The notes beneath the pieces were generated by a model. That model saw nothing but the letters and a program-made list of their open reading frames with translations, was not told the DNA's origin and made no database searches. This document shows, piece after piece, positions 30,987-53,260 of a stretch of DNA of 64,000 bases. Made by a program: the position numbers and the translations under genes. Source of the stretch: Caldalkalibacillus uzonensis. Its GTDB lineage: Bacteria > Bacillota > Bacilli > Caldalkalibacillales > Caldalkalibacillaceae. The stretch spans positions 124,001-188,000 of the forward strand of contig NZ_JAUSUQ010000002.1 of assembly GCF_030814135.1 (NCBI RefSeq). Reading direction: 5' to 3'. How positions within the stretch are numbered: the stretch's first letter is position 1; the number at the start of each line of letters is the position of its first letter.

Positions 30987-31045
30987 CCTCCTTTACAGTC
31001 CGATACCCCCTGTGCAGGGAGGCATTTTTCTCATTTCATCATACC

Positions 31046-32563
<1,518 letters not shown>

Positions 32564-32730
32564 CTAAAAATAGTTCCGTCTTCCACTATCATTTGCTTTC
32601 TATCTTCTTCACGTGAAGCAAGAAACCTTTTTACAACCTGTCTTTTTAGAAAATTTTATGTATGAGTACGAAAGTTCCATGTATCATAATCTCTATGGAA
32701 ACTCCCCCTTCTGCCCCTATCAAACAAAAA

Positions 32731-32784
32731 AGAAGACCAAAAAACCACACTCTTCCCACCAAAGAGTAGTTGTTTTGGTCTTCT
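32731..32784 (-). promoter_or_regulatory. GlpP-responsive leader terminator of glpK
   Basis: Hairpin with ten-pair outer arms AGAAGACCAA / TTGGTCTTCT and an inner CTCTTT/AAAGAG helix, followed on the minus strand by TTTTTTGTTTG. Arms and general layout match the glpD leader. The region 32558-32865 holds this element and the promoter; no gene was found in it. Confidence 0.8.
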
Positions 32785-32816
32785 CCTTATCTCCAACCAG
32801 GTATAGATTTGTCTAC

Positions 32817-32845
32817 AGTTTATGATAGGCGGACAAGTTTGTCAA
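32817..32845 (-). promoter_or_regulatory. Promoter of glpK
   Basis: Minus strand: consensus -35 TTGACA (32845-32840), 17-bp spacer, -10 TAAACT (32822-32817), 33 bp upstream of the leader hairpin. Confidence 0.65.
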
Positions 32846-32865
32846 CATTTTTTGAAATTTGCATC

Positions 32866-34206: not shown

Positions 34207-34264
34207 TTCCTTCACCTTTTCTTCCCCCTTGTGCATTTTTGAAAAAAATGTATAAGCTCACCAT

Positions 34265-35074
34265 CTATCCTTTTAATGCCCCTGACATCAATCCACGGCG
34301 GATGTGTTTGATGCCCAGGAACAATAAAAGCAAAGTAGGCAATAAAATGATCACCACGCCGGCCATGACCATATTCCAGGCTGTAGAAGCTTCTTGGGAA
34401 ATCATCATGCGGATGCCGATCTGGACCGTGCGCACATTTTCATTGCTGGTCACCAACAGCGGCCATAAATACATGTTCCATGTGGTCAAAAAGGCATATA
34501 TAGCCAAGGCACTCAACATAGGTTTGGACAATGGCAAGGCAAATGACCAATAAAAACGGAAACGGCTGCAGCCATCAATTTGCGCTGACTCATAGAGCTC
34601 CTTGGGCAAGGTCATAAAATGCTGGCGCAACAAAAAGATGCCAAAAGCCGTCGTTAGAAACGGAACAGTCAGGGCCAGATACGTATTGAGCCAGCCCAGA
34701 TTAAGGATCGTGACAAAGTTGGGAATCATAGCTGCCTCCCAGGGTATGAGCAGGGTGGAAATAAATAGAAAGAAGAAAAAGTTGCGCCCTTTGAAGGGAA
34801 TAAAGACGATGGCATAGGCAGCCAGACTGCACAACAGTAACTGCCCTAGAGTGACTATGGACGATACAATAAAGCTGTTAACCAAAAACTTAAACAGCGG
34901 GATGGTGCCAAAGGCCTGAAGATAACTGTCAAGGCTAAACCGGGACGGGATATAATGTCCGCTGTACAGCTCAGCCGTACTTAACAAACTGGCCAGTAAA
35001 GCAAACAGGATAGGAAAAAAGAGCACGAAAGCCGATATGCTGAGTAAAATATAAACAATGACTTTTCGTATCAT
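34265..35074 (-). CDS. ugpE: sn-Glycerol-3-phosphate-type ABC transporter permease UgpE
   Basis: 269 aa, six hydrophobic helices, binding-protein-dependent permease of the carbohydrate uptake class. The EAA loop reads ELYESAQIDGCSRFRFYWSFALPLSKP. It overlaps ugpA by four bases (ATGA) and is followed 58 bp later by ugpB. Forms the pore with UgpA. Confidence 0.9.
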   Translation of the reverse strand: MIRKVIVYILLSISAFVLFFPILFALLASLLSTAELYSGHYIPSRFSLDSYLQAFGTIPLFKFLVNSFIVSSIVTLGQLLLCSLAAYAIVFIPFKGRNFFFFLFISTLLIPWEAAMIPNFVTILNLGWLNTYLALTVPFLTTAFGIFLLRQHFMTLPKELYESAQIDGCSRFRFYWSFALPLSKPMLSALAIYAFLTTWNMYLWPLLVTSNENVRTVQIGIRMMISQEASTAWNMVMAGVVIILLPTLLLLFLGIKHIRRGLMSGALKG

Positions 35075-36018
35075 TGATAATGCACCTTCTTTTCACCCAC
35101 TTTAAACTGCAGTACTGTAAATACCAGGATGATGAAAAACAGGAGAATCGCCTGGGCACTGGCAAAGCCAAAGCGGGAAAACTCAAACGCCTCTTTGTAA
35201 ATCGAGTATACAATGATATTGGTGGCCTCATTGGGGCCCCCGCCTGTTAAAATATGAATCTGCCCAAAAGACTGAAAAGCATTAATAAGCGTCACCGTCA
35301 CCACAAAGAAAAGCGTCGGTGACAAGAGAGGAAGCGTAATTTTAAACAACTGGGCAAAATAACCGGCTCCGTCTATGCGTGCACTTTCATACAACTCTTC
35401 TGATATATTTTGCAAGCCGCCGAGCAGGATAATAAAGTTAAAGCCTACATTCATCCATACCGTGGTCACGGCAACCGAGAGCAGTGCCCATTCCCCGGAT
35501 GTCAGCCATGGAACCGGAGCCAGTCCTAGGAAAGCAAGTATATTATTAAACACACCAATGCTGGGATGGAACATAAACAGCCAGATGGTTGCTCCTGCAG
35601 CCACGGATACACCAAGTGTAGACGAAAATATGACTCTGAAAAATTCAACCCCCTTTAACCTTTCATTGGCGATAACCGCTAAAAACAGAGCGAGCAGCAC
35701 ACCGGTAGGAACCGTATACAAGACGAACTTCAGAGTTTGGATCATGCTGTGTTGGAAATTGGGGGACTGGATCAAGTGCATATAATTTTCCAGCCCGATA
35801 AAAGCCACTGTCTCCCCGCGGGGATTGGTGATGAAAAAACTGTAGTACAACGTTTTAAACATAGGGTAGAACAAAAACACGCCCAAAATAATAAGTGCTG
35901 GAGACAGGTACATGAGTCCCTCAGCGAAAAGCCGCCACTCTTGTGTGTGCATTTTCCTATGCTCCACAGCGGGATGTCTCAGTTTAGGCTGAGGAGACTG
36001 AAAGAAACGAAACGTCAC
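35071..36018 (-). CDS. ugpA: sn-Glycerol-3-phosphate-type ABC transporter permease UgpA
   Basis: 315 aa permease with N-terminal cytoplasmic extension and six helices. The EAA loop is ELYESARIDGAGYFAQLFKITLPLLSP; SFGQIHILTGGGPNEATNIIVYSIY is typical of the UgpA/MalF class. First gene of the three-gene set. No ATPase gene (ugpC/msmX) is present in the operon, so it must use an ATPase encoded elsewhere, as many Bacillus sugar importers do. Confidence 0.9.
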   Translation of the reverse strand: MTFRFFQSPQPKLRHPAVEHRKMHTQEWRLFAEGLMYLSPALIILGVFLFYPMFKTLYYSFFITNPRGETVAFIGLENYMHLIQSPNFQHSMIQTLKFVLYTVPTGVLLALFLAVIANERLKGVEFFRVIFSSTLGVSVAAGATIWLFMFHPSIGVFNNILAFLGLAPVPWLTSGEWALLSVAVTTVWMNVGFNFIILLGGLQNISEELYESARIDGAGYFAQLFKITLPLLSPTLFFVVTVTLINAFQSFGQIHILTGGGPNEATNIIVYSIYKEAFEFSRFGFASAQAILLFFIILVFTVLQFKVGEKKVHYQ

Positions 36019-38050: not shown

Positions 38051-39103
38051 TCAGTCGCATTCCTCTATTCTCTTGATTCCTAAAGTGGCTGCCAAATGAT
38101 TTAACTCTGCATACACCTCCGGTGATAGGGGGATACCTTCTTTGATTCGCCGGGTAGCAGTGATCCTTTTTCTCTCCCCTGGAATATAGATTTGGTCTGC
38201 TCCTTCTCTTAACGGGATAGCCTTAATTTCATCGCTCATTTGGGAGATGCGCTTCAGGTACTCATTATAGTGTAAATAATGGCTCACGTTGGAAAGGAGG
38301 ATAAAATGACCCACATTGGCCTCACCAGCATGTTGTTCATAGATAGACTGTACATAGGGGCCAAAGGCAGCTCCGGTCAAAATGCCAGCCAATATTTCCA
38401 TGGATAAGGCCAAGGCGTAACCTTTTGCTCCCCCGAATGGCAGCACAGCCCCTTTTAGTGCTTCAGCTGGGTTGGTTGTCTCTCGACCCTGCTGGTCAAT
38501 CGCCCATCCTGTGGGGATTGTTTCTTTGTTTTTGTTGGCCAGGATGATCTTACCCCTGGCCACTATACTGGAGGACATGTCAACGATGACAGGAGGGCCG
38601 TCAGTTGGAAAACCGAAGGCGATGGGATTGGTTCCAAAATACGGTTCCCGGCCACCCCAAGGGGGGATACCCTTGGGCGAGTTAGTCGTCAGCATGCAGA
38701 AGAGGTGGTGCTGGGTTGCCAATTTGCAGTAATAACCGGCTTGCCCAAAATGATTACTATGCCGAATAGCAATGGCCACCAACCCGTGCTCCTTGGCCTG
38801 AGGCCATCCGGTCTCTACCGCCTTGTAAGTCACCACCTGTCCCAATCCGTTATCTCCATCGACTAACATCACATTTCCGTTATGGTGAATCGTTACCTCC
38901 GGATGCGGATTGATGCGACCCTCTTTTAAGCGTTGAATGTAAATAGGAAGGCGTGAGATACCGTGGCTATCCAGCCCGTCTAAGTTAGCGTCAACGATAA
39001 TCTCACTGGCAATACGGGCATCCTCTGGCTTAAAACCTACACTCATAAATGCGTCATGACAAAACTGCCTGGCTTGATCTGCGTCAATCAGGATCAAACT
39101 CAT
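38051..39103 (-). CDS. comC: Ldh2-family dehydrogenase, probable (2R)-sulfolactate dehydrogenase
   Basis: 350 aa member of the malate/L-lactate dehydrogenase (LDH2) family, unrelated to the usual Rossmann LDH. Family motifs: LDSHGISRLPIYIQRL near the N-terminus, IRHSNHFGQAGYY with the catalytic His, FGTNPIAFGFP, and PFGGAKGYALALSMEIL. ComC oxidises (2R)-3-sulfolactate to sulfopyruvate. Together with an SlcC-like enzyme it can invert sulfolactate stereochemistry, as shown for Chromohalobacter. The assignment to sulfolactate rests on neighbours suyA, suyB and the slcC-like gene; ureidoglycolate, malate or another 2-hydroxy acid would be possible for the family alone. Confidence 0.72.
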   Translation of the reverse strand: MSLILIDADQARQFCHDAFMSVGFKPEDARIASEIIVDANLDGLDSHGISRLPIYIQRLKEGRINPHPEVTIHHNGNVMLVDGDNGLGQVVTYKAVETGWPQAKEHGLVAIAIRHSNHFGQAGYYCKLATQHHLFCMLTTNSPKGIPPWGGREPYFGTNPIAFGFPTDGPPVIVDMSSSIVARGKIILANKNKETIPTGWAIDQQGRETTNPAEALKGAVLPFGGAKGYALALSMEILAGILTGAAFGPYVQSIYEQHAGEANVGHFILLSNVSHYLHYNEYLKRISQMSDEIKAIPLREGADQIYIPGERKRITATRRIKEGIPLSPEVYAELNHLAATLGIKRIEECD

Positions 39104-39128: not shown

Positions 39129-39863
39129 CTACTCAGACGAACGGGGGCCTTTTAATGGTGGATCAAGTTCATTGTTTAATGTTTCTTCTACACTGTTTAA
39201 ATGTTCATACATTAATCTTCGAGCCTCTGGTGGATCGCCTTTGTAAATGGCCTCTGCTATCAGTTGATGTTCTTTTAGCGATCGTAAGGGACGGCCAGGA
39301 ATCTGTAAGGTGTGCATGCGCGCAGTTTTTAAAAGACCCATTAAATGCTTCATTACACTCAGATAAACGGCATTCCCGGTGCTTTCCGAAATGAGGTAGT
39401 GAAAGTTATGGTCAGCCTGCTCTAAGTAATCGATATCCACTTCTTCATAAATGACCGTGTCATAATTTTCCTTTGTTGTTTTTAAAATCTTCTCTTTCAT
39501 CCGGGGTGTCGCCCGTTCAGCAGCCCAGTAAGCCGCTTGTGTCTCCAATACCTTGCGCATTTCAAACAGATCACTAACCGAATCCTGACTGTTAAAAAAG
39601 GTTTCGAAAATGTCTTGCATGCGGTCCTTGGGATCTTTGACAAAGACTCCCTGACCGTGCTTAATGTCCACAAATCCCAAACCGGACAAAATCTTAAACG
39701 ATTCCCTGATCGTCGGCCGGCTAACATCCATGAGCTGGGCCAGTTCTCGTTCCGGCGGAAGCTTATCCCCTGGTTTTAACTGTCCGTCAAGGATTAACTG
39801 TTTAATGTGGTTGACCACTTTACCTGTATAATTCAATTTATCATTTTTAATTGATTTAAACAT
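39129..39863 (-). CDS. GntR-family (FadR/FCD subfamily) transcriptional regulator
   Basis: 244 aa. The N-terminal winged helix-turn-helix has GDKLPPERELAQLMDVSRPTI and the C-terminal FCD domain contains DADxxFH-like DHNFHYLISESTGNAVY and a late EHQLIAEAI, giving Asp/His ligands for a metal that holds a carboxylate effector. ATG at 39863 follows CAGGTGAG. It sits inside the catabolic unit between the slcC-like and comC-like genes, so the effector is probably sulfolactate or a related acid and the target the suy operon promoter. Confidence 0.9.
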   Translation of the reverse strand: MFKSIKNDKLNYTGKVVNHIKQLILDGQLKPGDKLPPERELAQLMDVSRPTIRESFKILSGLGFVDIKHGQGVFVKDPKDRMQDIFETFFNSQDSVSDLFEMRKVLETQAAYWAAERATPRMKEKILKTTKENYDTVIYEEVDIDYLEQADHNFHYLISESTGNAVYLSVMKHLMGLLKTARMHTLQIPGRPLRSLKEHQLIAEAIYKGDPPEARRLMYEHLNSVEETLNNELDPPLKGPRSSE

Positions 39864-39874
39864 GTTCTCACCTG

Positions 39875-40822
39875 CTATCTTATTGAGCATATGGACGGCT
39901 GTCCCCTCAGCTCCTTCAACACCTCTTCTGCCACTAAGCGGGATGTTCTCTCCTGCGACTGTTCTGTTAACCCTGCCACGTGGGGGGTTAGGATCACGTT
40001 GTCTAAGGCAAAGAGGGGATGGTCCTGCTGTGGAGGCTCCTGTTCAAGTACATCAAGAATACCAAACGCCTGGTGATGATGATTTAAAAATGTACTTAAA
40101 GCTTGTTCATCGACCACCCCTCCCCTTGATGTGTTAATCATGGTTACCGTTGGTTTCATTTTACTAAACTCGGCATGTGAAATCATATCCCTTGTTTGGG
40201 GCGTAAGCGGCACATGAATACTAATAAAATCACTGTGAGCTAACACGTCCTCAAATGAAACTTTCTTAATTCCTGCTTCAGCGTAGGGGTAATCATAGGG
40301 ACCAACAAAAGGATCATACCCCACTACCTTCAGCCCCAGCGCTTGCGCCCTGACCGCAATTCTTAGACCAATTTCACCGACACCAATCAGCCCCAGTGTC
40401 CGGCCGTAAATTTCGGAGCCTGTAAAGCACCGACGATTCCACTGGCCTTGTTTAACGGCTTCTGTGGCAGCTAGCAAAGGACGGCAGACCGTTAGCAAGC
40501 CAGCAATGACATATTCCGCGACTGATATGGCGTTGGCATTCTTAGCATAGACCACGGAAACATCCGCTTCCTTTGCCGCCCCGATATCAATATTGTCAAG
40601 GCCGACGCCAAGACGACCAACCACTTTTAGCCGGCTGGCATGGGCTAATAATTGACGGTCAACCTGCGTTTGATTGCGGACGATTAGCGCATCAGCATCC
40701 TTGATTTCACTGAATAATTTTTCCCGGTCCTTCCACAAATCAGGGTTATAAACCACTTTAGCTTCCTGACGCAATAATCGAATGCCTTCCGGCCAATTGA
40801 GCTCCGCAATGACAACCTTCAT
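39875..40822 (-). CDS. slcC: D-2-hydroxyacid dehydrogenase, probable (2S)-sulfolactate dehydrogenase
   Basis: 315 aa of the phosphoglycerate dehydrogenase-like family. NAD-binding motif LGLIGVGEIGLRIAVRAQALG; catalytic Arg in INTSRGGVVDEQ, Glu in LDVLEQEPPQQDHPLF, His in LTPHVAGLT. It lacks the C-terminal ACT domains of SerA. SlcC oxidises (2S)-3-sulfolactate to sulfopyruvate, which the ComC-type enzyme reduces to the (2R) form used by SuyAB. ATG at 40822 follows GGGGGATG. Placement between suyB and the regulator is the main reason for the name; a generic hydroxypyruvate or phosphoglycerate role is the alternative. Confidence 0.68.
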   Translation of the reverse strand: MKVVIAELNWPEGIRLLRQEAKVVYNPDLWKDREKLFSEIKDADALIVRNQTQVDRQLLAHASRLKVVGRLGVGLDNIDIGAAKEADVSVVYAKNANAISVAEYVIAGLLTVCRPLLAATEAVKQGQWNRRCFTGSEIYGRTLGLIGVGEIGLRIAVRAQALGLKVVGYDPFVGPYDYPYAEAGIKKVSFEDVLAHSDFISIHVPLTPQTRDMISHAEFSKMKPTVTMINTSRGGVVDEQALSTFLNHHHQAFGILDVLEQEPPQQDHPLFALDNVILTPHVAGLTEQSQERTSRLVAEEVLKELRGQPSICSIR

Positions 40823-40929: not shown

Positions 40930-42099
40930 TTAGATGCTGACCCCTGTACGGTGAATAGCAAACCCGGTATACTCTTTCAAGATTTCTGATTTGGTCAATT
41001 TTCCGTTGCAGGTCTCTAACACCTCGTCGTAGATGAGATCACCTGCCGCTTCTAAGCTGAGATCACCGTTGAAAATATCGCTTAGATCGAGTTCGAGGGT
41101 ATCCTGCATGGCTTGATAGGAGTTCACATTACTGGTAATGCGTATCGTAGGCATGATCGGGTGATTAATGACGTGACCGCCTCCTGTACTGAAAACGAGC
41201 ACCTGGGCCCCAGCAGCAGCGATGCCAGTGATCGATTCACTGCCATGTCCCGGGGTATACATGACATACAATCCAGGGTCTTTGGCCGGCGCCTCAGCAT
41301 AATCAATCAGATCCATAATAGTGGCTGACCCGCTCTTTTGATAAGCTCCCAGGGACTTCTCCTCAATTGAACTCAACCCTCCCACGATATTATCCCCAGT
41401 CGGCTGTGAACCGCGAATATCCTCTCCGCTCTCCAAAGCCCGCCGTTCAAAGTGCTGAATAGCGGCAACGATTCTCTCGCCCACTTCCGGGGTGACTGCC
41501 CGCTCCCGTATGTAGTCCTCAGCTCCCATCAGTTCTGTAACTTCGGCTAATATTGAGCGTCCCCCCTGAGCGATGATTTTGTCTGAACAAAAACCAAGGG
41601 ATGGATTGGATCCTAAACCAGATGTAGTATCGGATGTACCGCAGTTGAGGCCGAAAAGAAGGTTGGAGATGGGAACAGGTTCCCGTCTTAACCTGGAGAT
41701 CTGTCTCTTGATCAGCATCGCTTTTCTGGTGGCTTCCGCAGTGGCCGCAATCGCTCCTCCAGCATGGCGTATATTGACTACTTCGACTGGCTTGCCAGTC
41801 TGGCTGATTTCATGGGCGATTTCTTCTGCCGTACACCCTTCTTCCCGGAAATGATCAATGACCACAACACCGCCCACATTGGGGTTTTTACCCATACCCA
41901 CCAGTGTTTTAAAGGTGGTTCTCAAGTCGGGCTTCACTTGACAGCGGCCCAAGGGGTGGGTGATGGCAATGGCGCCTTCAATGGTATTAGCCACCCTTTC
42001 TGCTGTTGAATTGGCGTAAACCGTCCCCGATAAAATGAGCAGATAATTACGAATACCGGCACTGCCATCAGGTCTGACATAACCAAAAAATTGATCCAT
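40930..42099 (-). CDS. suyB: (2R)-3-Sulfolactate sulfo-lyase large subunit (UxaA family)
   Basis: 389 aa catalytic subunit of the altronate/galactarate-dehydratase-like family. Opening GYVRPDGSAGIRNYLLIL, then HPLGRCQV, FGLNCGTSDTTSGLGSNPSLG and GHGSESITGIAAAGAQ, with several conserved Cys and His that bind the metal. SuyAB cleaves (2R)-3-sulfolactate to pyruvate and sulfite. The large/small split of 389 and 107 aa fits the two-subunit SuyAB. Two sulfite-exporter-type genes in the same island support the sulfo-lyase reading over altronate or galactarate dehydratase, since no hexuronate genes are near. It overlaps suyA by one base (TAATG). Confidence 0.75.
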   Translation of the reverse strand: MDQFFGYVRPDGSAGIRNYLLILSGTVYANSTAERVANTIEGAIAITHPLGRCQVKPDLRTTFKTLVGMGKNPNVGGVVVIDHFREEGCTAEEIAHEISQTGKPVEVVNIRHAGGAIAATAEATRKAMLIKRQISRLRREPVPISNLLFGLNCGTSDTTSGLGSNPSLGFCSDKIIAQGGRSILAEVTELMGAEDYIRERAVTPEVGERIVAAIQHFERRALESGEDIRGSQPTGDNIVGGLSSIEEKSLGAYQKSGSATIMDLIDYAEAPAKDPGLYVMYTPGHGSESITGIAAAGAQVLVFSTGGGHVINHPIMPTIRITSNVNSYQAMQDTLELDLSDIFNGDLSLEAAGDLIYDEVLETCNGKLTKSEILKEYTGFAIHRTGVSI

Positions 42100-42605: not shown

Positions 42606-43538
42606 TTGAACTATGAACATATAAAAACGTTTCTTATTGTGGCTGAAAAGAAAAGCTTTACCAAAACAGCCCAACTTTTACACTTGTCCCAACCTACCGT
42701 CACCGCTCATATCAAGGCACTGGAGCGACACCTGAATACAACACTGTTTGAACGAAACACCAAATCAGTGGCGCTCACACCCGCTGCAAAAATCTTATAC
42801 CGCTATGCCAAAGAGATTATTAAACTATGTGAACTGGCTGAAAATGAGATCCTCAACATGAGTCAAACCATACAAGGCAGATTAACCATTGCTTGCAGTC
42901 TGACGATTGGAGAAAATATTCTGCCGCTTGTGTTAAAGGAACTCAAACAAAACTTTCCCTATCTCCAACTCAATGTAGACATCACCAATACCACCCAGAT
43001 TATACAAAGAATTAAAGCTCATACATTGGATATTGGTTTAATTGAAGCGCCTGTGGACGATCCCTCGCTGATTCTAGAGCCTTTTATGGAGGATAAATTG
43101 GTCCTTATCTCTAGCCCGAACTATTTTGAAATAGCTAAATGTTATGTCACCAAAGATGAGATGACCCAGCTCCCCCTTATTTTACGTGAGCAAGGGTCCG
43201 GTACCAGAACTGTAATGGAAAAACACCTGGCCCAAGCCGGTGTGGAGCTTGAAGATTTAAACATCATCTTGGAATTGGGCAGCACAGAGTCGGTCAAGTC
43301 AGCTGTAGAATCCAATCTGGGCGTGTCAATCTTATCAAGAACTGCGATTAAGAAAGAATTAAAATTAAATCTGTTAAAAGCCTACCCAATTAAAGACCTT
43401 TCCTTCTCTCGCCATTTCTATATCGTTTATCATCGGGATACGGTACTGAAACCAACGGATCAAGCCTTGATCCAAACCGTGAAGGCCCTAAACAAAATAG
43501 AGGAAGATGCCTCTCCCTCTAAATCACCAACCCCTTAG
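42606..43538 (+). CDS. LysR-family transcriptional regulator
   Basis: 310 aa. N-terminal helix-turn-helix: FTKTAQLLHLSQPTVTAHIKALERHL at residues about 18-45; the C-terminal effector domain starts near residue 90 with GRLTIACSLTIGENILP, resembling the CysL/CbbR group. Start is TTG at 42606 with AAGGGG upstream. It is divergent from suyA and convergent with tctB, overlapping its 3' end by 20 bp. As LysR proteins often control a divergent operon, it is likely to act on suyA and perhaps on the tct/SDH-like operon. Confidence 0.92.
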   Translation: MNYEHIKTFLIVAEKKSFTKTAQLLHLSQPTVTAHIKALERHLNTTLFERNTKSVALTPAAKILYRYAKEIIKLCELAENEILNMSQTIQGRLTIACSLTIGENILPLVLKELKQNFPYLQLNVDITNTTQIIQRIKAHTLDIGLIEAPVDDPSLILEPFMEDKLVLISSPNYFEIAKCYVTKDEMTQLPLILREQGSGTRTVMEKHLAQAGVELEDLNIILELGSTESVKSAVESNLGVSILSRTAIKKELKLNLLKAYPIKDLSFSRHFYIVYHRDTVLKPTDQALIQTVKALNKIEEDASPSKSPTP

Positions 43539-43995
43539 GCACGGGGACGCGTAAAAAGATGCTAAAGGCAAGATAAATAATAAACATGACTGTACTTGAC
43601 ACGATAACAGGATAGAGCAAGGCCTTCATATTGACCCTTAAGCCGTTAAGATACCAGCTGATCAGGATCAGAAAGAGGGCACTGGTTGTATAGAAACCGA
43701 TTTGGGGCATGAGGACAACATAGGCGATAAGGGCACTCATACTGATCCATCCTTTTTTTATGTTTCCTTTCTCATCTGTTGCTCCCGGGTCGTCTGGCTC
43801 GTCGTGGTAGTATCTGTTAAAGAACAATGCTTTGGCAAGCAAGATACTCCCTAGCACAAACAGAATAAGGATAACAGCTTTTGGGAAAATATCCGCAGGG
43901 GGTGTCAATGTTTTGGTATTGATATAAAAAGCGATGGACAAACCTAACACAATGAGCGCAACGATCATATCCTTCTTCCGTTCTCGATCATGCAT
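43519..43995 (-). CDS. tctB: Tripartite tricarboxylate transporter small subunit TctB
   Basis: 158 aa, four hydrophobic helices, TctB family: AFYINTKTLTPPADIFPKAVILILF and a later helix with YPVIVSSTVMFIIYLAFSIFLRVPVPKG. Works with TctA as the small membrane subunit. 26 bp after tctA. Its 3' end overlaps the convergent LysR gene. Last gene of the long minus-strand operon that starts at the SDH-like iron-sulfur gene. Confidence 0.85.
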   Translation of the reverse strand: MHDRERKKDMIVALIVLGLSIAFYINTKTLTPPADIFPKAVILILFVLGSILLAKALFFNRYYHDEPDDPGATDEKGNIKKGWISMSALIAYVVLMPQIGFYTTSALFLILISWYLNGLRVNMKALLYPVIVSSTVMFIIYLAFSIFLRVPVPKGLVI

Positions 43996-44021: not shown

Positions 44022-45545
44022 CTAAGCACCCATTCGGGTCCCCTCTTCCCCCTGTGCTTTACGTTGAACCCGATTGACGAAGATGGGGGCAAAGATAGAT
44101 AGAATAGTGAGAATAATAAGGAGAATGGAGATCGGGCGTGTGAGGAAGAGTTTAAAGGCACCGCTCACTGAGTCTGCAATAATCACCGATAACACAAACC
44201 CTTGCTCGGCAATCACACCTAAGATCAGCCCTAATACTATAGGACCGGCCGAAATACCTACCTTAAAAGCAAAATAACCTAGTATGCCGCAAGCCAGCAT
44301 CACATAGACGTCTAATACACTATTCCGAATCGAGTATGAACCAATGACGGCTAAGACAACAATAATCGGAGCCAAATAATGAACCGGAACGGTCAAGGCG
44401 CGCACAAAATAGCGGGTTCCCCACAAACCGATCATTAAGAGAAGGAGATTGGCAGTAATTAAACCCAACATAAAGGTGTAGGCAATGGTTCCTGCTTCTT
44501 CAAACAACGCCGCCCCTGGCTTTAAGCCATGGATAAGCAGTCCCCCTAATAGGACGGCCGCCACTGGACTTCCAGGAATCCCTAGGGTTAGCAACGGAAT
44601 GAGAGAAGAACTAACAGTAGCATTATTAGCCGACTCACTCGTCACCACGCCATCCACATTACCTTTACCAAAAGATTGTGGCTCTTTTGAGAAACGTTTG
44701 GTCTCGTTATAAGCAACAAATGAGGCCACATTTCCCCCGGCTCCCGGCAGCATGCCGATGAACGTTCCGATAAGGGAACTCCGCAATAAGATCACTGGCT
44801 TCTTGAGCGTCTCCACAATCGTTCGTTTATAGATCCCTTTTTTAGGCTGATATTGAGTGATGTACTTATCATCTTTTATAATTAAGCGAATCACTTGCGG
44901 AATGGAGAAAAATCCGATCATAGCCGGCAAAAGATTAATGCCTTCGATCAAGTTGCGTATGCCAAAGGTAAAGCGGGGATAACCTGAAACAGGGTCTATG
45001 CCGATTAGGGCCAGCAACAATCCCAGTGCACCGCCGATCAACCCTTTTAGTAAGGACTTGCCTGCTAAGCTCCCTATGATGGTCAACCCAAAAATAGCCA
45101 ACCAAAAATTCTCCGGTGGTCCAAAACTTAAAGCAAATGTAGCCAGTGGTTGGGATAAAAAGATAAGAAATAACGTGCCGATAATACCTCCTATCACAGA
45201 AGCCACCAACGCTGTAACTAGGGCACGGTCGGGTTCTCCTTTTAACGTCATGGGATAGCCGTCAAACGTCGTGGCGACAGCAGCAGGTGTTCCAGGGGTA
45301 TTGATGAGGATTGCTGAATTAGCTCCACCAAACATGGCTGCAGTATAAAGTGCCCCTAAGGCTAAAAGTCCGGTAGCCGGGTCCATCCCGAACGTCAAGG
45401 GGACGAGCAGGGCCACGCCCATCGTTGCTGAGAGCCCTGGCAGAGTTCCGATGATGATCCCCCCGACCACTGCTAGAGACATGACGAACAAATTACCAAT
45501 AGAGAGGCTGTTAAGCAGACCTTGAATGATGCTATCGATCATCAA
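44022..45545 (-). CDS. tctA: Tripartite tricarboxylate transporter large subunit TctA
   Basis: 507 aa, about twelve hydrophobic segments, TctA family: GTLPGLSATMGVALLVPLTFGMDP and AMFGGANSAILINTPGTPAAVATTFDGYP near the N-terminus, repeated in the second half as GMLPGAGGNVASFVAYNETKR and LLTLGIPGSPVAAVLLGG. Uses an ion gradient to import a carboxylate delivered by the TctC binding protein. In the sulfolactate users known from the literature a transporter of this class imports the sulfonate, consistent with this island. Confidence 0.93.
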   Translation of the reverse strand: MMIDSIIQGLLNSLSIGNLFVMSLAVVGGIIIGTLPGLSATMGVALLVPLTFGMDPATGLLALGALYTAAMFGGANSAILINTPGTPAAVATTFDGYPMTLKGEPDRALVTALVASVIGGIIGTLFLIFLSQPLATFALSFGPPENFWLAIFGLTIIGSLAGKSLLKGLIGGALGLLLALIGIDPVSGYPRFTFGIRNLIEGINLLPAMIGFFSIPQVIRLIIKDDKYITQYQPKKGIYKRTIVETLKKPVILLRSSLIGTFIGMLPGAGGNVASFVAYNETKRFSKEPQSFGKGNVDGVVTSESANNATVSSSLIPLLTLGIPGSPVAAVLLGGLLIHGLKPGAALFEEAGTIAYTFMLGLITANLLLLMIGLWGTRYFVRALTVPVHYLAPIIVVLAVIGSYSIRNSVLDVYVMLACGILGYFAFKVGISAGPIVLGLILGVIAEQGFVLSVIIADSVSGAFKLFLTRPISILLIILTILSIFAPIFVNRVQRKAQGEEGTRMGA

Positions 45546-45665: not shown

Positions 45666-46631
45666 TTAATTGATTTCGTTAAATTGTTCAAGAATACTCT
45701 CCGCTTCTTGCTTCTGTTCTTCTATTAATTTGGCCCATTCATCTCCAGACAGAAAAGCAGGAGGCAATCCGGCATTCTCCATTCCTTCCAAATATTCTGG
45801 CAAGTCAGTGATCTTCTCTAATGCCTCATACAATTTCTCGTAGGCTTCCCTTGGGCTTCCTTTCGGCATGGCTAAGCCGCGGTCAATGGCAGCGACAAGA
45901 TCAATACCCTGTTCTTTAAACGTTGGCGCATCCGGCAGCCACTCGTGGCGCTCTTCAGTTGCGACTGCCAATACTTTGAATTGCTGAGGTTCCTTGGCTA
46001 CATCCCCTACATTGCCCATGATGGCATCTACATGTCCCCCCAGAAGAGCAGCCACCTGGTCAGCCGCACCCTGGAAAGGAGTGGGATTTACTTCAACTCC
46101 TGCCCTGTCCATGAACATTAATGTGGTTAAATGGTCCCCTGTTAATGTTCCGGTCATTCCTACAGTTAAACTGCGCGGATTTTGTTTGAGGTGGTCAATG
46201 AACTGATCTAACCTATCAAATTCACTATCGGCCCGAACAGCCAAAACTTGAGGATCAGAGACAAGACGAACCAGAATGTCGAAGCTGTCTGTGTCAAACT
46301 CTGTTGGTCTTCCCAAAGGCTGCAAAATGATATGTGGTGTATTAATAGCCCCGATCGTATATCCGTCCGGTTTGGCTTTGGCCAGCTCGGTAAAGCCAAC
46401 CTCCCCTCCTGCTCCTGTTTTGTATTCAATGACCATGTTGGTTTCAAAGTAGTCCGTCCACAAACTTTCGATCAACCTTAAATTAACATCCGTGGTTCCA
46501 CCAGCAGAAAAGGGATTGATCGTGATGATATTACGGTTCGGATAATCTTCAACAGATGTGGATGAACTACACGCAGACAAGAACAAAGCCATCATCAATG
46601 TGATAGAGAGCAAAACAGAACACTTTTTCAT
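45666..46631 (-). CDS. tctC: Tripartite tricarboxylate transporter substrate-binding lipoprotein TctC
   Basis: 321 aa. Signal peptide with lipobox LFLSACSSS, lipidated Cys near residue 21. Family fold: NIITINPFSAGGTTDVNLR and IEYKTGAGGEVGFTELAKAKPDGYTIG, the two loops that clamp a carboxylate, then ALLGGHVDAIMGNVGDV. TctC-type proteins bind citrate, tartrate, dicarboxylates, aromatic acids or sulfolactate. Here it sits downstream of the fumarase-like and SDH-like genes, so its ligand is presumably their substrate. ATG at 46631 follows GGGGGG. Confidence 0.88.
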   Translation of the reverse strand: MKKCSVLLSITLMMALFLSACSSSTSVEDYPNRNIITINPFSAGGTTDVNLRLIESLWTDYFETNMVIEYKTGAGGEVGFTELAKAKPDGYTIGAINTPHIILQPLGRPTEFDTDSFDILVRLVSDPQVLAVRADSEFDRLDQFIDHLKQNPRSLTVGMTGTLTGDHLTTLMFMDRAGVEVNPTPFQGAADQVAALLGGHVDAIMGNVGDVAKEPQQFKVLAVATEERHEWLPDAPTFKEQGIDLVAAIDRGLAMPKGSPREAYEKLYEALEKITDLPEYLEGMENAGLPPAFLSGDEWAKLIEEQKQEAESILEQFNEIN

Positions 46632-46649: not shown

Positions 46650-47264
46650 TCATTGATCACTTTTAATACCCAACTCTGCCAGCACATGCTCCATATTTTT
46701 CTTTGCTTGAGCTTTGATGTTTCGATATAAGTTATTACCATGGCAATCGATGGACACGATCAGCGGGCCAAAATTTTTAACTCTAAACTTCCAGATGGCT
46801 TCAGGCATCAGATCTTCCCACCACACCTCCTCAATATCTTCAATCTGCAATGTTTCCAAAGCAGCTGCTCCTCCAATGACGGTCAAATAACACCCTTTTA
46901 AATCGACGCAAGCCTGACATCCGTCTTCCAAGAGGCCTCCTTTTCCAGCAATGGCCTTTAATCCGTATGTTTTGAACAAGCCTCTTGTAAAGCGATCCAT
47001 CCTGTAACTGGTGGTGGTGCCAACACAAATTTTTTTATATTTACCGTTTTCTAATTTTTTGACGTTAGGAGCTGTGTGCAAGCCAATGGCACCTTTTAAT
47101 TGAGCAATGAGATCTGGAGGCAGTTCTACTTTTTGATCAAATAAGCGGATCAAGTTGGCATCCCGAATACCGAAAATATGACCATCGATGCTGACTGTGT
47201 CACCCGCCCGTAATGTTTCAATCAGTTCATCCGCAAGGGGAGACTGGATATGATAGTGAGCCAT
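46650..47264 (-). CDS. Class I fumarate hydratase-like enzyme, beta subunit
   Basis: 204 aa, matching the C-terminal domain of class I fumarase and TtdB. Recognisable: GDTVSIDGHIFGIRDANLIRL, IGLHTAPNVKK, GKGGLLEDGCQACV. The active-site segment normally close to GPTTAGRMD in fumarases reads VGTTTSYRMD here: the Pro is Thr and the Ala/Ser-Gly pair is Ser-Tyr, while Arg-Met-Asp is kept. The EAIWKFRVKNFGPLIV segment also departs from the usual FPA. These changes suggest a non-standard substrate. It follows the alpha subunit gene by 21 bp. Confidence 0.85.
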   Translation of the reverse strand: MAHYHIQSPLADELIETLRAGDTVSIDGHIFGIRDANLIRLFDQKVELPPDLIAQLKGAIGLHTAPNVKKLENGKYKKICVGTTTSYRMDRFTRGLFKTYGLKAIAGKGGLLEDGCQACVDLKGCYLTVIGGAAALETLQIEDIEEVWWEDLMPEAIWKFRVKNFGPLIVSIDCHGNNLYRNIKAQAKKNMEHVLAELGIKSDQ

Positions 47265-47285: not shown

Positions 47286-48218
47286 TTAATAGGTAATAGA
47301 CACTGCTTCTCCCGGACTAAATGTCGCCCTTCTTCTCCTCGCCGGCCAGCACATCATATTAACGGCCACAGGATTCATGGTCATATGGGTGTGAGCCTCT
47401 TCAATATGAACGGCAAGCGCGGTGGTACTCCCGCCCAATCCGTGGGCTCCAATGCCCAGTTGGTTGATTGCCTCATATAATTCATCTTCTAACGCCCTGA
47501 CATGAGGATCGGGATTTTGGGAGCCTACTTCACGCACGGACGCTTTTTTGGCCAAAGCGACGCACAGGTCAGCCGAGCCACCTATGCCGATCCCCACAAT
47601 AGTGGGGGGACAGGGATTGGCACCTGATTCAAACACACATTCCAACACAAACTTTTTAATTCCGTCGCTCCCTTCAGCCGGAGTCAAGCATTTTAAGTAG
47701 CTCATGTTTTCCGATCCCGATCCTTTAGGGACGTTTAAAATCTCGACTTGATTTCCCTGGACAAACTCATAATGAATAACGGGAATCCGGTAGCCGGTAG
47801 AAGTGCCCGTATTTTTACGGGTGAGGGTATGACAAATGCTGCTTCGCAACGGATGCTCTAATGTGGCCCGTTCGGTCCCCCGACGAATCGCCTGCTCCAA
47901 ACGCCTGCCATCGAAGCGAACTTCACTTCCAATTTTGACAAAGTAGATAGGGATGCCAGTGTCTTGGCAAATGAGCATATGATGTTCGTCGGCCTTATCA
48001 ACATTCTCAATCAGTGTCTTCAGGATTCTTTTGCCGCTATCCAATTCCTCCCGTTTGTACGCATTCTGCAAGGCTTCTCTCACATCCGGCGGTAAATCTT
48101 TTAAAGATTCAATATATAACGTTTTGCATACTTCCTCCACATTTTGATAAAATGAATCGTCAACATCCCAAACCTCACTGTAATCTTGCTGGTCGGCTAA
48201 GATCATCCTGTCAGTCAC
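47286..48218 (-). CDS. Class I fumarate hydratase-like enzyme, alpha subunit
   Basis: 310 aa, [4Fe-4S] hydro-lyase subunit homologous to the N-terminal half of FumA and to TtdA. Cluster-binding Cys are in MLICQDTGIP, RSSICHTLT or FESGANPCPP, and the substrate loop motif LNVPKGSGSENMSYLK is conserved; GIGIGGSADLCVALAKKA follows. Fumarases add water across fumarate to give L-malate; this pair may hydrate fumarate or an analogue. It lies between the SDH-like flavoprotein gene (17 bp upstream) and the beta subunit gene, one operon, so product of the dehydrogenase is probably its substrate. Confidence 0.88.
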   Translation of the reverse strand: MTDRMILADQQDYSEVWDVDDSFYQNVEEVCKTLYIESLKDLPPDVREALQNAYKREELDSGKRILKTLIENVDKADEHHMLICQDTGIPIYFVKIGSEVRFDGRRLEQAIRRGTERATLEHPLRSSICHTLTRKNTGTSTGYRIPVIHYEFVQGNQVEILNVPKGSGSENMSYLKCLTPAEGSDGIKKFVLECVFESGANPCPPTIVGIGIGGSADLCVALAKKASVREVGSQNPDPHVRALEDELYEAINQLGIGAHGLGGSTTALAVHIEEAHTHMTMNPVAVNMMCWPARRRRATFSPGEAVSITY

Positions 48219-48235: not shown

Positions 48236-49957
48236 TTATTCAATGATATATTCTCCATTCCCAATTCGCATTCTGTTTTGCTTTACTTCTCTTATCTCGT
48301 ATCGTGGCTCCCCGTCATCTCCTTGTTGAACAAAAATATTTTTTAGCCAGTTCTGATCATCCATTTCAGGAAAATCCTCACGATAATGAGATCCTCTGCT
48401 TTCTGTCCGCAGCAGTGCACTGGTGGTGACCATCTTGGCAATCGTGATCAAATTTTGGACATTGAGCGCTTCTTGCCAAGCCAGATTGTATGCCCTCGGA
48501 CCTCTGATAGAGATTCGCCGTACTCTCTCTTCTAATTCCAGCAATTCTCTCTGTGCATCCTGCAAATCTTTTTTGGTGCGCACCAGTCCAACTTTTGTCC
48601 ACATTAAGTCCTTTAATTGGTGTTTGAGTTTAAAAGGATTCTCGCCATTCTTTCTATTGAAGGAAGAGAGTACCTCTTTTTCCGTATCTCTGACCTGTCC
48701 TGCCCATACTCTTGCCGTTTTGTTCAGGTTAAGAACATAATCAGCCGCCGCATCTCCTGCTCGGGCACCGAACACAATGGAATCAGCAACTCCATTGCCT
48801 CCCAAACGATTGGCACCATGTACGCCCCCTGCATCCTCTCCAGCCACAAATAAGCCAGGGAGATGAGTTTCACAGTTAATGGTGATCTGAACACCTCCCA
48901 TATGATAATGAGCAGACGGGGATATTTCTACGGGCTCCGTGCTCAAATCACGTCCAACATCTTTACACCTTTCAACCATCCCAGGGAACATCTTTAGTAC
49001 ATTTTCTCTACCCAAATGAGAAACATCGATATATACGCCTCCCAAAGGGGTTCCCCGACCCGCCATGATCTCCATGTAACAGGCTCTGGAGACACGATCC
49101 CGGGTGGAACGTTCCATTCGTTCCGGATCGTAGCGATTCATAAACCGTTCTCCCAAGGCGTTATACAAATATCCTCCCGCCCCTCGGAGCCCTTCTTCCA
49201 AAACCCCGCCATTTAATCTTGAATTTTCAGCTAATAATCCGGTCGGATGAAACTGCATCATTTCCATATCTAAAAAAACAGCTCCTGCTCTGTAGCACAT
49301 GGCCATCCCATCACCTGATTTTTCCATACTCGGTGTGGCCATCCTATACATGGTTGCTGCTCCACCCGTTCCGACAATCACGGCTTTGCTGCGGACGACC
49401 AACAACTCACCCGAGCGGATATCCAGCATCAGGCACCCCGCAATACAACCACTATCTACATCGACTAGCAACTCAAGGGCTCTTACTTCATCCCATGTTG
49501 CCACATTGGCTTTGGCAAAGAGCTGATCTCTCAAGCGGGAGGTAATCTCAATCCCAGTTAAATCCCCCCGGTGGACGGTGCGGTCAAATGATTGGCCAGC
49601 AAAAGGTTTTTGGTGAATGGTGCCATCCTCATTTCTGTCGAAAAAACACCCCATTTTGTTTTCTAATTCGAGGATACGCTTAGGTGCATCCTCGACCAAG
49701 ACCCAAGCCAAATCTTGATTGTTAATCCCTGCCCCTCCTTTAATCGTATCGGTGAAATGTTTATCCAGGGAATCATCGGGATGGAGAACAGCATTGTATC
49801 CCCCCTGAACCATACGCGTGCATCCGCTTTTGCCGATCAACCCCTTTGCAGCCATAATGATCTTTAACTTGGGAGAGACATCAGCCGCATGATGGGCGGC
49901 AAACAACCCCGCCCCTCCACTTCCTAGAATTAAAATGTCCGTCTCAACATGCTCCAC
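48236..49957 (-). CDS. Succinate dehydrogenase/fumarate reductase-type flavoprotein
   Basis: 573 aa FAD subunit. N-terminal FAD motif DILILGSGGAGLFAAHHAAD. Dicarboxylate-site residues of the family are kept: MQFHPTGLL, Glu and Arg in LEEGLRGAGG (usual RGEGG reads RGAGG), Arg in STRDRVSR, His in SAHYHMGG, and Arg in GANRLGGNG. The His that covalently holds FAD in true SDH/FRD (SHT...QGG) is replaced: the segment reads SGCTRMVQGG, with Cys at that position by eye alignment. GTG at 49957 follows AAAGGTGGTG. The gene order iron-sulfur, anchor, flavoprotein differs from the Bacillus sdhCAB operon. Confidence 0.87.
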   Translation of the reverse strand: MEHVETDILILGSGGAGLFAAHHAADVSPKLKIIMAAKGLIGKSGCTRMVQGGYNAVLHPDDSLDKHFTDTIKGGAGINNQDLAWVLVEDAPKRILELENKMGCFFDRNEDGTIHQKPFAGQSFDRTVHRGDLTGIEITSRLRDQLFAKANVATWDEVRALELLVDVDSGCIAGCLMLDIRSGELLVVRSKAVIVGTGGAATMYRMATPSMEKSGDGMAMCYRAGAVFLDMEMMQFHPTGLLAENSRLNGGVLEEGLRGAGGYLYNALGERFMNRYDPERMERSTRDRVSRACYMEIMAGRGTPLGGVYIDVSHLGRENVLKMFPGMVERCKDVGRDLSTEPVEISPSAHYHMGGVQITINCETHLPGLFVAGEDAGGVHGANRLGGNGVADSIVFGARAGDAAADYVLNLNKTARVWAGQVRDTEKEVLSSFNRKNGENPFKLKHQLKDLMWTKVGLVRTKKDLQDAQRELLELEERVRRISIRGPRAYNLAWQEALNVQNLITIAKMVTTSALLRTESRGSHYREDFPEMDDQNWLKNIFVQQGDDGEPRYEIREVKQNRMRIGNGEYIIE

Positions 49958-51174: not shown

Positions 51175-51203
51175 ATCCTATTGATATTTTAATAAGTTGT
51201 CAA
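51175..51203 (-). promoter_or_regulatory. Promoter of the SDH-like/fumarase-like/tct operon
   Basis: Minus strand: consensus -35 TTGACA (51203-51198), 17-bp spacer, -10 TAGGAT (51180-51175), 43 bp ahead of the iron-sulfur gene. It lies in the region shared with the divergent TauE-type gene, so joint control is likely. Confidence 0.65.
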
Positions 51204-51337
51204 GGAAAATATGTAAAATTAAGATTTTTCTATTATTTGTTTTCGTAATAAATAGGATAGTAATAATGAAATTCTAATTCGTTCTATTCACTGCTAAAAT
51301 GAGGTATGACCAATCTGATATGAAGGAGCCGCTCATC

Positions 51338-52111
51338 TTGTCTCTAACCTTATTTCTCATCGGTTTGATCAGTGGCGTTGTCACTGGTTTACTTTCTATT
51401 GGGGGAGGCATTATCCTGATCTCATTTCTGATCATCATTCCCCCCTTAATACTTAAAGAAACGTTTACCATGCAAACGATCGCCGGGTTTGCGATGCTGC
51501 TCGCTTTTTTTTCCACTCTTTCCGGATCGATTTATTATTGGCGAGCACGACTGATTGAGCGAAATGTGGTCCTTTTCCTGGGTGTTCCCTCTTTTTTTGG
51601 GGCGATGCTTGGGTCCTTTCTGTCCGAATATACACCAGAGAAAATCTTAAAAATCATCTTCATCATCCTCGCTGTGGGAGCAGTGATCATTTTACAGATT
51701 TCCCAGAATCCAAATCATGCTGATCAGCGTTTCCGTTTTCAACCCTATTCGGCTGTACTGACCGTTGGGGCAGGCATCGTGATCGGGGGGATCGGGGGGT
51801 TAATCGGACTAGCAGCCGGGTTTATCTATGTCCCTTTCATGACCTATTTTTTTAAATTCCCTATTAAAAAAGCTATCGGCTCCAGTCTGAACACCTGTTT
51901 TCTGTTGGCTTGTGGTGGTTTAGCCATTAAATTTGGCGTTCATTCCATCGCCCTTGGGTTAGGATTCAGTCTCGTTTTGGGCGGCATCATCGGTGCCCAG
52001 CTGGGAGGCATTATTGGAAAATTTCTCTCCCCTCTGATCTTGAAAGAAGTGGCCACATTACTTATTTCCTTAATCTGTATCAAGCTCATCTATGATTTAT
52101 TCCAATTATAG
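51338..52111 (+). CDS. TauE/SafE-family sulfite exporter
   Basis: 257 aa membrane protein, about eight helices in two repeats: GLISGVVTGLLSIGGGIILISFLII in the first half and GIVIGGIGGLIGLAAGFIYVPFMTYFFKFPIKKAIGSSL in the second, the duplicated family signature. TTG at 51338 has AAGGAG nine bases upstream and fits the usual family start; ATGs at 51299 and 51320 are open alternatives without a ribosome site. Family members export sulfite released from sulfonates or organosulfur compounds. It is divergent from the SDH-like operon and followed by the YeiH-type gene 21 bp later. Confidence 0.85.
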   Translation: MSLTLFLIGLISGVVTGLLSIGGGIILISFLIIIPPLILKETFTMQTIAGFAMLLAFFSTLSGSIYYWRARLIERNVVLFLGVPSFFGAMLGSFLSEYTPEKILKIIFIILAVGAVIILQISQNPNHADQRFRFQPYSAVLTVGAGIVIGGIGGLIGLAAGFIYVPFMTYFFKFPIKKAIGSSLNTCFLLACGGLAIKFGVHSIALGLGFSLVLGGIIGAQLGGIIGKFLSPLILKEVATLLISLICIKLIYDLFQL

Positions 52112-52132: not shown

Positions 52133-53260
52133 TTGACCTTCTCTTATAGAATTCTACCGGGCGTTGTATTATGTTTGCTTATCATGACCGTGGGAGAATT
52201 ATTCTCCCGCTGGATCGGATATGGATTAAATCTCTTACAAGGACTAACCACCGACAATCCCAGCCCTGTATCCGGCATCTTCATCGCCATTTTATTAGGA
52301 TTGGTGGTTCGAAATGTCCTCGGCCTACACGAGTTTTTCAGAGATGGAGTCCTATTCTCAATCAGATATATTTTAAGACTTGGCATCATACTACTAGGTA
52401 TTCGCTTAAGTTTCTACGATGTAGTCAAATTAGGAATCTGGGGCATTCCTATTATTGTCTCTTGTGTGGGGGTGGCTTTGTTCATCACATTGTGGATGAC
52501 CCACAAGATGAATCAATCCAGCCGTTTGGGCACCTTGATTGCGGTAGGAACAGGTATTTGTGGCGTAACGGCTATTGTAGGAACCTCGCCGGGGATACGC
52601 GCCAATGATCGTGAAGTCGCTTATGCCATTGCCAATATTACACTGTTCGGGATTATTGCTATGTTTATATATCCTTATGTTGCTTATATACTCTTCCAAA
52701 ATGATCCAATTAAAGCAGGTCTTTTCTTGGGAACGGCGATTCATGAAACTGCTCAGGTTGCAGGGGCAGCTTTAATCTACAACCAAATGTTTGCCCAATC
52801 TCTGGTCATCGACGCCGCCACCATTACCAAACTGACTCGAAATTTTCTGTTGCTTGCGGTTGTACCATTGATGAGCTTCTACTATGTAAAAAAATTAAAA
52901 GACCGAAGAGAATCAGAAGGAACTGAGACTAAATGGTATCAGCTCATTCCTCTGTTCGTCCTCGGTTTTTTGGCCATGGCCATTGTGCGGAGCATTGGGG
53001 ATGCGGGAGCAGCAGCCAATGGTTTAGCCTTCGGTCTCTTGAACGAGAACCGGTGGGTCACGCTGTGGACCACCTTAAGCACGCTGGGGTCCAAGTATCT
53101 GTTGGGCATTGCCATGGCAGGCATTGGCCTTTCCACCAGCGTCCATGTTTTTAAAGGACTGGGAATTAAACCTTTTTATATCGGTATGATCGCAGCTCTC
53201 ACTGTCAGCATCATCAGTGCTGTCCTGATCTATTTCCTTGGTGACTTTATCCGCCTCTAA
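52133..53260 (+). CDS. YeiH-family putative sulfate/sulfite exporter
   Basis: 375 aa membrane protein with about ten helices. Family motifs: SGIFIAILLGLVVRNVLG, GIILLGIRLSFYDVVKLG, GTGICGVTAIVGTSPGIRAND, and GTAIHETAQVAGAALIYN. TTG at 52133 with AAGGAG upstream. Family proteins are annotated as putative sulfate exporters and are often regulated by CysL-like LysR proteins. Pairing with a TauE-type gene next to a sulfo-lyase operon indicates a sulfite-export role. Confidence 0.87.
   Translation: MTFSYRILPGVVLCLLIMTVGELFSRWIGYGLNLLQGLTTDNPSPVSGIFIAILLGLVVRNVLGLHEFFRDGVLFSIRYILRLGIILLGIRLSFYDVVKLGIWGIPIIVSCVGVALFITLWMTHKMNQSSRLGTLIAVGTGICGVTAIVGTSPGIRANDREVAYAIANITLFGIIAMFIYPYVAYILFQNDPIKAGLFLGTAIHETAQVAGAALIYNQMFAQSLVIDAATITKLTRNFLLLAVVPLMSFYYVKKLKDRRESEGTETKWYQLIPLFVLGFLAMAIVRSIGDAGAAANGLAFGLLNENRWVTLWTTLSTLGSKYLLGIAMAGIGLSTSVHVFKGLGIKPFYIGMIAALTVSIISAVLIYFLGDFIRL

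Follow-up and report, generated by a model that had tools for sequence, protein, structure and literature searches.

The 64,000-nucleotide stretch of DNA from Caldalkalibacillus uzonensis analysed here (the window) encodes a flavoprotein, SdhA*, that resembles the catalytic subunits SdhA and FrdA of complex II, and in which a cysteine stands in the region where these enzymes bind FAD through a histidine. We asked how such an enzyme would hold its flavin, on which substrate it would act, and what the genes that surround it in this and other genomes suggest about its role.

Flavin site and substrate pocket

The open reading frame proposed in a first-pass annotation is borne out, with a GTG start and 573 codons on the minus strand (Table 1). 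The protein has the Pfam domains FAD_binding_2 and Succ_DH_flav_C. Its AlphaFold2 model (pLDDT 92.7) superimposes on E. coli FrdA (1kf6) with a Z score of 55.5 and an rmsd of 2.1 over 557 residues, and a Foldseek/VIA search with this model returned known complex II relatives only. The annotation had placed Cys at the position of the FAD-linking His, and this agrees with counting back from the QGG anchor, which puts Cys46 on FrdA His44 and SdhA His45. MAFFT instead aligns the His with G45 and leaves C46 unpaired, because the SdhA* loop has one extra residue in front. In both registers of the alignment against E. coli FrdA and SdhA the His is absent from the linking site, and comparison with E. 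coli NadB also gives Cys46 or Gly45, never His. The residue for 8alpha-N3-histidyl attachment of FAD expected in a complex II flavoprotein is missing from SdhA*; the genome's three canonical SDH flavoproteins have SHT or SHS there.

Cys46, Arg48 and, in the substrate pocket, Glu254 are present in all 93 aligned sequences (92 relatives and the window protein), although the motif used to scan contigs for relatives contained Cys and biases the scan towards it. Cys46 and Glu254 are likewise present at 41/41 loci that were chosen by BLAST and not by the motif. Because of this double invariance the cysteine is beyond chance. Among control SDH/FRD/NadB sequences from the same genomes as the clade, 33 of 39 have His in the aligned column. 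In the tree the SdhA* clade is monophyletic, with its 96 members together on a long stem (support 1.0). When substituted SdhA* fragments were scored against NCBIfam, the TfrA profile preferred Cys over His by 6.4 bits and the canonical SDH/FRD profiles preferred His by 4–5 bits. Cys is therefore no singularity but a trait of a wider branch to which TfrA also belongs, and since TfrA is a fumarate reductase, exchange of His for Cys is not by itself the sign of a new substrate.

The FAD of SdhA* is most likely not histidyl-linked, and a non-covalently bound flavin is, in our judgement from the sequence, probable; we rate it above an 8alpha-S-cysteinyl link through Cys46. FAD attached in the latter manner is known from other enzymes, for example monoamine oxidase, and would restore a high potential from which an oxidising role would profit. 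Cys46 is invariant and sits at the linking site, but the same Cys is favoured by the profile of TfrA, which reportedly holds its FAD non-covalently, and the H44C variant of E. coli FrdA is said to contain no covalent FAD. Confidence in the model is moreover low for the Cys46 loop with its extra residue (pLDDT 71). As an answer to the flavin question the cysteinyl link thus appears rather unlikely. The clade constitutes a natural set of Cys-for-His enzymes that bears on why succinate oxidation keeps a covalent flavin.

The earlier statement that the catalytic residues of the dicarboxylate site are kept holds in part. H237, E255, R258, R286, H350 and R384 (FrdA H232, E245, R248, R287, H355 and R390), the catalytic His/Arg/Glu set of complex II, are invariant in the clade alignment, but FrdA T244, which binds the far carboxylate of the substrate, is replaced by Glu254 in 93/93 sequences. 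The reading of RGEGG as RGAGG was correct; the Ala at the position of FrdA E250 (A260) is shared by 86/93 clade members. In addition, the conserved GANRLG is followed in SdhA* by NG (388–389) in place of the canonical NS. TfrA was probed via its NCBIfam profile alone, by scoring altered SdhA* fragments, and the score rises by 3.6 bits with E254 changed to T, by 3.6 bits with A260 changed to E and by 1.9 bits with R48 changed to V. E254, A260 and R48 thus set the clade apart from TfrA as well as from the canonical enzymes, an argument that its substrate differs. In outline, therefore, the suggestion of a different substrate gains support from these clade-specific residues and from the recurrent sulfonate gene neighbourhood described below. 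A glutamate would be a surprising neighbour for an anionic sulfonate or carboxylate group; one guess is that Glu254 may pair with the equally invariant Arg48. SdhA* lacks both defining residues tested, the FAD-linking His and the substrate-binding Thr, and so does not warrant the name of succinate dehydrogenase or fumarate reductase.

The operon and its neighbourhood in relatives

The gene for SdhA* is the third in a compact minus-strand operon, sdhB-sdhC-sdhA*-fumA-fumB-tctC, with intergenic gaps of 18–38 bases; tctA and tctB follow tctC after a gap of 120 bases. In the tctC–tctA gap, a hairpin is no more stable than its shuffled counterparts (z –0.99). The iron-sulfur subunit and membrane anchor that complex II requires are encoded together with SdhA*, with one anchor only: no SdhD was found in the window operon, and apparently the same applies to its Bacillus relatives. 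Annotated proteobacterial clusters have two anchors, and none was seen at haloarchaeal loci. On the far side of the LysR gene a second group, also on the minus strand, encodes SuyA-like and SuyB-like subunits, SlcC-like and ComC-like proteins, a GntR regulator and one more 2-hydroxyacid dehydrogenase. The ComC-like protein has NF040650 as its best match, with 283 bits against a cut-off of 500. Only two TauE matches were found in the 3.88 Mb genome, one of them beside sdhB.

Table 1 Features around sdhA*, in window coordinates.
Feature	Position	Strand	Remarks
Ldh_2 family dehydrogenase, ComC-like	38051..39103	-	best NCBIfam L-sulfolactate dehydrogenase NF040650
GntR/FCD regulator	39129..39890	-	SuyR-like by position
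D-2-hydroxyacid dehydrogenase, SlcC-like	39875..40822	-	
SuyB-like GD_AH/UxaA-family subunit	40930..42099	-	
SuyA-like small subunit, 107 aa	42099..42422	-	overlaps suyB start
LysR-type regulator	42606..43538	+	
Terminator-like hairpin after tctB	43498-43521		
TctB small permease	43519..43995	-	
TctA-like permease	44022..45545	-	assigned from position and from resemblance to annotated TctA proteins of relatives
TctC substrate-binding protein, tripartite tricarboxylate transporter (TTT)	45666..46631	-	
Class I fumarase beta-type subunit	46650..47264	-	
Class I fumarase/tartrate dehydratase alpha-type subunit	47286..48218	-	proposed sulfoacrylate hydratase
SdhA/FrdA-like flavoprotein SdhA*, 573 aa	48236..49957	-	GTG start; Cys46, Arg48, Glu254 (FrdA T244), Ala260 (FrdA E250)
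FAD-link segment GKSGCTRMVQGG, residues 42–53	49799..49834	-	Cys46 codon 49820-49822; counted from the GTG at 49957
SdhC-like membrane anchor, 125 aa	49986..50363	-	HALYGIR motif
SdhB-like iron-sulfur subunit, 243 aa	50401..51132	-	motifs CRLGMCGTC, CITCGLCYQSC, CHVFGGCVEVCPKGI
Promoter-like TTGACA-17-TAGGAT, sigma-70-type, upstream of sdhB	51175..51203	-	consensus match only
TauE/SafE family exporter	51299..52111	+	divergent from sdhB
YeiH family putative sulfate/sulfite exporter	52133..53260	+	TIGR00698, 134 bits, below cut-off 232.6

Elsewhere in the genome there are three His-type SDH flavoproteins, three additional matches to class I fumarase and one FumC-like protein, and this redundancy disfavours a housekeeping role for the sdhA* operon. 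A second cluster (G000:C19:5317-9468) combines a class I fumarase with a B. subtilis-type SdhA and an odd FAD_binding_2 protein of 528 residues (motif YGGSSSISDAVH); an apparently MmgE/PrpD-like open reading frame adjoins it. Positions 30411–36018 of the window hold ordinary glycerol-3-phosphate uptake genes (Ugp-type ABC transporter, GlpK and a glycerol-3-phosphate antiterminator).

We compared 40 loci of the clade with 39 canonical SDH/FRD/NadB loci drawn from the same genomes, with flanks of equal extent (~7 kb). At least one of TauE, YeiH, SuyA, SuyB, ComC and SorA occurs at 22/40 clade loci versus 1/39 canonical loci (Fisher p = 9e-8, indicative only, as the loci are phylogenetically non-independent), and the class I fumarase FumA/FumB at 36/40 versus 2/39. 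Counts for single families are 11 versus 0 for TauE, 12 versus 0 for SuyB, 10 versus 0 for SuyA and 6 versus 1 for ComC; YeiH, SorA and NIPSNAP taken singly show no significant enrichment among the same loci. Some clade loci, including most acidobacterial ones, have no sulfonate gene within 7 kb. A hold-out set was chosen by BLAST after the hypothesis had been formed, from 7/150 genomes of Desulfovibrionales and 24/150 of Burkholderiales. Its 26 readable loci have a sulfonate gene in 22 cases, SuyB in 15, ComC in 13 and a class I fumarase in all 26.

In Desulfovibrionales, sdhA-sdhB-fumA-fumB-suyA-suyB lie on one strand at 5/6 loci, and fumA, fumB, suyA and suyB are in most cases separated by a few bases or overlap. 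In Bacillus sp. T33-2, whose SdhA* is 74% identical to that of the window, sdhB-sdhC-sdhA-fumA-fumB-tauE-suyA-suyB share one strand and are followed by a ComC-like gene. A Sulfitobacter locus reads sdhB-D-C-A-fumA-fumB, one extra gene, then tauE-lysR-tctC-B-A, which resembles the order in the induced cluster considered below. In Pseudomonas sp. MPC6 a gene for a CoA-acylating semialdehyde dehydrogenase lies directly 3' of fumB. Haloarchaea have sdhA*, sdhB and SuyAB-like and TauE-like genes without a class I fumarase. On haloarchaeal plasmids (L128:5371-6873, L134:6281-7783) a gene of the fumarase/argininosuccinate-lyase superfamily, annotated argH, stands divergently beside sdhA*. Its product matches the coenzyme M biosynthesis models XcbC and XcbD below cut-off; the XcbC and XcbD enzymes make or use sulfoacrylate, and the lyase is possibly a replacement hydratase. 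Two Desulfovibrionales SdhB partners (L197:11409-12752, L199:11167-12513; 447–449 residues) have a C-terminal Rieske [2Fe-2S] fusion, which is unusual for SdhB. A TPP-dependent enzyme recurs at 14/40 clade versus 0/39 control loci (L070:8566-10380, L176:9730-11355, L177:3404-5005); it belongs to no named family, and its best models, acetolactate synthase and 2-hydroxyacyl-CoA lyase, all score below cut-off.

The SuyB-like protein of the window is 37.6% identical to the SuyB beside hpsNO in Cupriavidus pinatubonensis and 29.7% identical to E. coli UxaA. It groups with the haloarchaeal copies that are also beside sdhA*, in a lineage sister to the hpsNO-linked SuyB clade. The SuyB of most relatives falls within that C. 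pinatubonensis clade; these proteins are 65–71% identical to Methylobacterium SuyB, itself 69% identical to that of C. pinatubonensis.

A candidate route for 3-sulfopropionate

Replacement of one carboxylate of succinate by a sulfonate yields the series 3-sulfopropionate, sulfoacrylate and sulfolactate, which matches the order of functions in the clade operons. We lean towards 3-sulfopropionate as the substrate of the SdhA* complex, which would oxidise it to sulfoacrylate for conversion to sulfolactate and cleavage by SuyAB. The genes sdhB-sdhC-sdhA*-fumA-fumB would then specify a membrane-bound dehydrogenase resembling complex II, with an altered dicarboxylate pocket, together with a hydratase of the class I fumarase type, and the operon would extend sulfolactate breakdown upstream by copying the succinate–fumarate–malate logic on a sulfonate. 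In the first step SdhA*BC would form trans-3-sulfoacrylate and pass the electrons to the quinone pool, and FumAB would hydrate this product to 3-sulfolactate. By homology, SlcC/ComC-like dehydrogenases would interconvert the sulfolactate enantiomers and SuyAB would release pyruvate and sulfite. Exporters of the TauE/YeiH type may expel sulfite or sulfate, and the TTT transporter may import the sulfonate. Sulfolactate is the established substrate of SuyAB, and SlcC and ComC form a racemising pair (PMC12421959, PMC11131964).

A 2024 paper describes 3-sulfopropionate breakdown as unreported in bacteria except for a Konstanz thesis on Roseovarius nubinhibens, which proposed a path via sulfoacrylate and sulfolactate (PMC11489063). 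Bilophila wadsworthia can use 3-sulfopropionate as the electron acceptor for growth (PMC11489063) and converts it to H2S by a mechanism that a 2026 review calls unclear (PMC12890257). No genes for the conversion of 3-sulfopropionate via sulfoacrylate to sulfolactate are named in the literature searched, a body that excludes most subscription papers and the thesis; the clade cluster is a concrete candidate for them.

The cluster might instead encode an accessory SDH/FRD and fumarase, co-regulated with sulfonate or tricarboxylate uptake and feeding pyruvate and C4 acids into central metabolism. SdhA* has the fold and most catalytic residues of FrdA/SdhA, and a class I fumarase adjoins canonical SDH genes of this genome too. 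The authors of PMC12421959 take an induced cluster, which may be the same as that of the clade, to be linked to the Krebs cycle. Several points also count against a sulfonate role: the window suyB-like gene is in a different transcription unit from sdhA*, past the divergent LysR gene, its product has only 37.6% identity to the hpsNO-linked SuyB, the ComC-like protein scores under its cut-off, and some clade loci have no sulfonate neighbour. We nevertheless consider an accessory function unlikely, given the three His-type SDH flavoproteins, three further class I fumarases and FumC-like protein already in the genome, the (near-)invariance in the clade of E254, A260 and R48, which are absent from canonical enzymes and the TfrA profile, and the excess of sulfonate neighbours over canonical loci (22/40 versus 1/39). 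The same neighbourhood would suit sulfosuccinate or a similar dicarboxylate analogue that contains sulfur, which would later be decarboxylated to sulfopyruvate or sulfolactate: a TTT transporter suits di- and tricarboxylates, and the hydroxyacid dehydrogenases could accept sulfomalate. In Desulfovibrionales, however, suyAB comes immediately after fumAB and no gene for a dehydrogenase or a decarboxylase intervenes, an arrangement that agrees with hydration straight to sulfolactate and renders this alternative quite improbable. Roles with mesaconate/methylsuccinate or tartrate, considered on account of the class I fumarase and the TTT transporter, were dropped once sulfonate neighbours recurred. 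Mercaptosuccinate was likewise set aside; the paper on its use by Advenella (PMC5373536) makes no mention of sulfosuccinate, sulfolactate or succinate dehydrogenase.

The flavin bears on the direction of the proposed reaction. Covalent attachment raises the FAD potential, engineered non-covalent forms lie 90–150 mV lower, and non-covalent relatives such as NadB and the soluble fumarate reductases catalyse the reduction of fumarate but not the oxidation of succinate (PMC9557727). SdhA* might accordingly be read in reverse, as a quinol:sulfoacrylate reductase with a low-potential, non-covalent FAD that serves as a sink in the manner of fumarate reductase, and the Cys common to SdhA* and the TfrA profile would agree with this. 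SuyAB, sulfite exporters and uptake systems in the clusters speak for mineralisation, and the clusters are present in bacteria usually held to be aerobic (Burkholderia-like, Methylobacterium, Paracoccus), so that we regard the reductase as very improbable. Oxidation of 3-sulfopropionate with a non-covalent flavin nonetheless involves a tension: since the non-covalent relatives only reduce, a dehydrogenase would need a favourable sulfoacrylate couple, the proton-motive force or an S-cysteinyl link at Cys46.

On balance, we give about even credence to the full proposal of a widespread and distinct branch of complex II that acts on 3-sulfopropionate and not on succinate, with a pocket reshaped by E254, A260 and R48 and no histidyl-FAD, and that would form with a class I fumarase and SuyAB a complete sulfonate-mineralising route, also the missing one from 3-sulfopropionate to H2S in Desulfovibrionales. 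If correct, complex II, usually held to be strictly a succinate/fumarate enzyme, has been moved to a sulfonate, and sulfonate-respiring Desulfovibrionales would obtain H2S in this way from 3-sulfopropionate, which is formed in the gut from sulfoquinovose and DHPS and in other settings from homotaurine.

Relation to known systems

SdhA* shares with the E. coli quinol:fumarate and succinate:quinone reductases (FrdA/SdhA) its fold, two-domain layout and catalytic set, as well as an SdhB with three Fe-S motifs and an SdhC-type anchor. It is 34–35% identical to FrdA/SdhA and departs from them at the FAD His (here Cys), the substrate-binding Thr (Glu), the Glu of RGEGG (Ala) and the NS pair (NG), as well as in the new Arg48, the single anchor and the sulfonate gene neighbourhood. 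TfrA (NF004900) is the best-scoring named family and also favours Cys at the FAD-link position, but the score of 621 bits is below the cut-off of 718, and the TfrA profile has T and E where the clade has E254 and A260. Unlike in the TfrA system, a membrane anchor is encoded with SdhA*, and its partner is an ordinary SdhB of 243 residues that matches only the first 223 of 488 positions of the TfrB profile NF004898. L-aspartate oxidase (NadB) belongs to the same superfamily, lacks the FAD-linking His and holds its FAD non-covalently. SdhA*, however, scores 370 bits against the TIGR00551 cut-off of 452.75, the genome has a separate NadB, and NadB works without SdhB or SdhC.

The sulfolactate modules of Chromohalobacter, Paracoccus and Cupriavidus have genes of the SuyAB, ComC, 2-hydroxyacid dehydrogenase, TTT and TauE types, as do the window and many of its relatives. 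Those modules begin at sulfolactate, cysteate, DHPS or sulfosugars, and an SDH-like complex with a fumarase was not found in any sulfolactate module described in the literature searched. A precedent in logic is HpfX/HpfYZ of Enterococcus gilvus, which act on sulfonates as succinate-semialdehyde dehydrogenase and succinyl-CoA synthetase do on their carboxylate substrates. HpfX is a CoA-acylating 3-sulfopropionaldehyde dehydrogenase (PMC11489063), to be compared with the semialdehyde dehydrogenase encoded after fumB in Pseudomonas sp. MPC6. These enzymes make 3-sulfopropionate, whereas the SdhA* complex would consume it, and the step proposed here would be the next in the same analogy.
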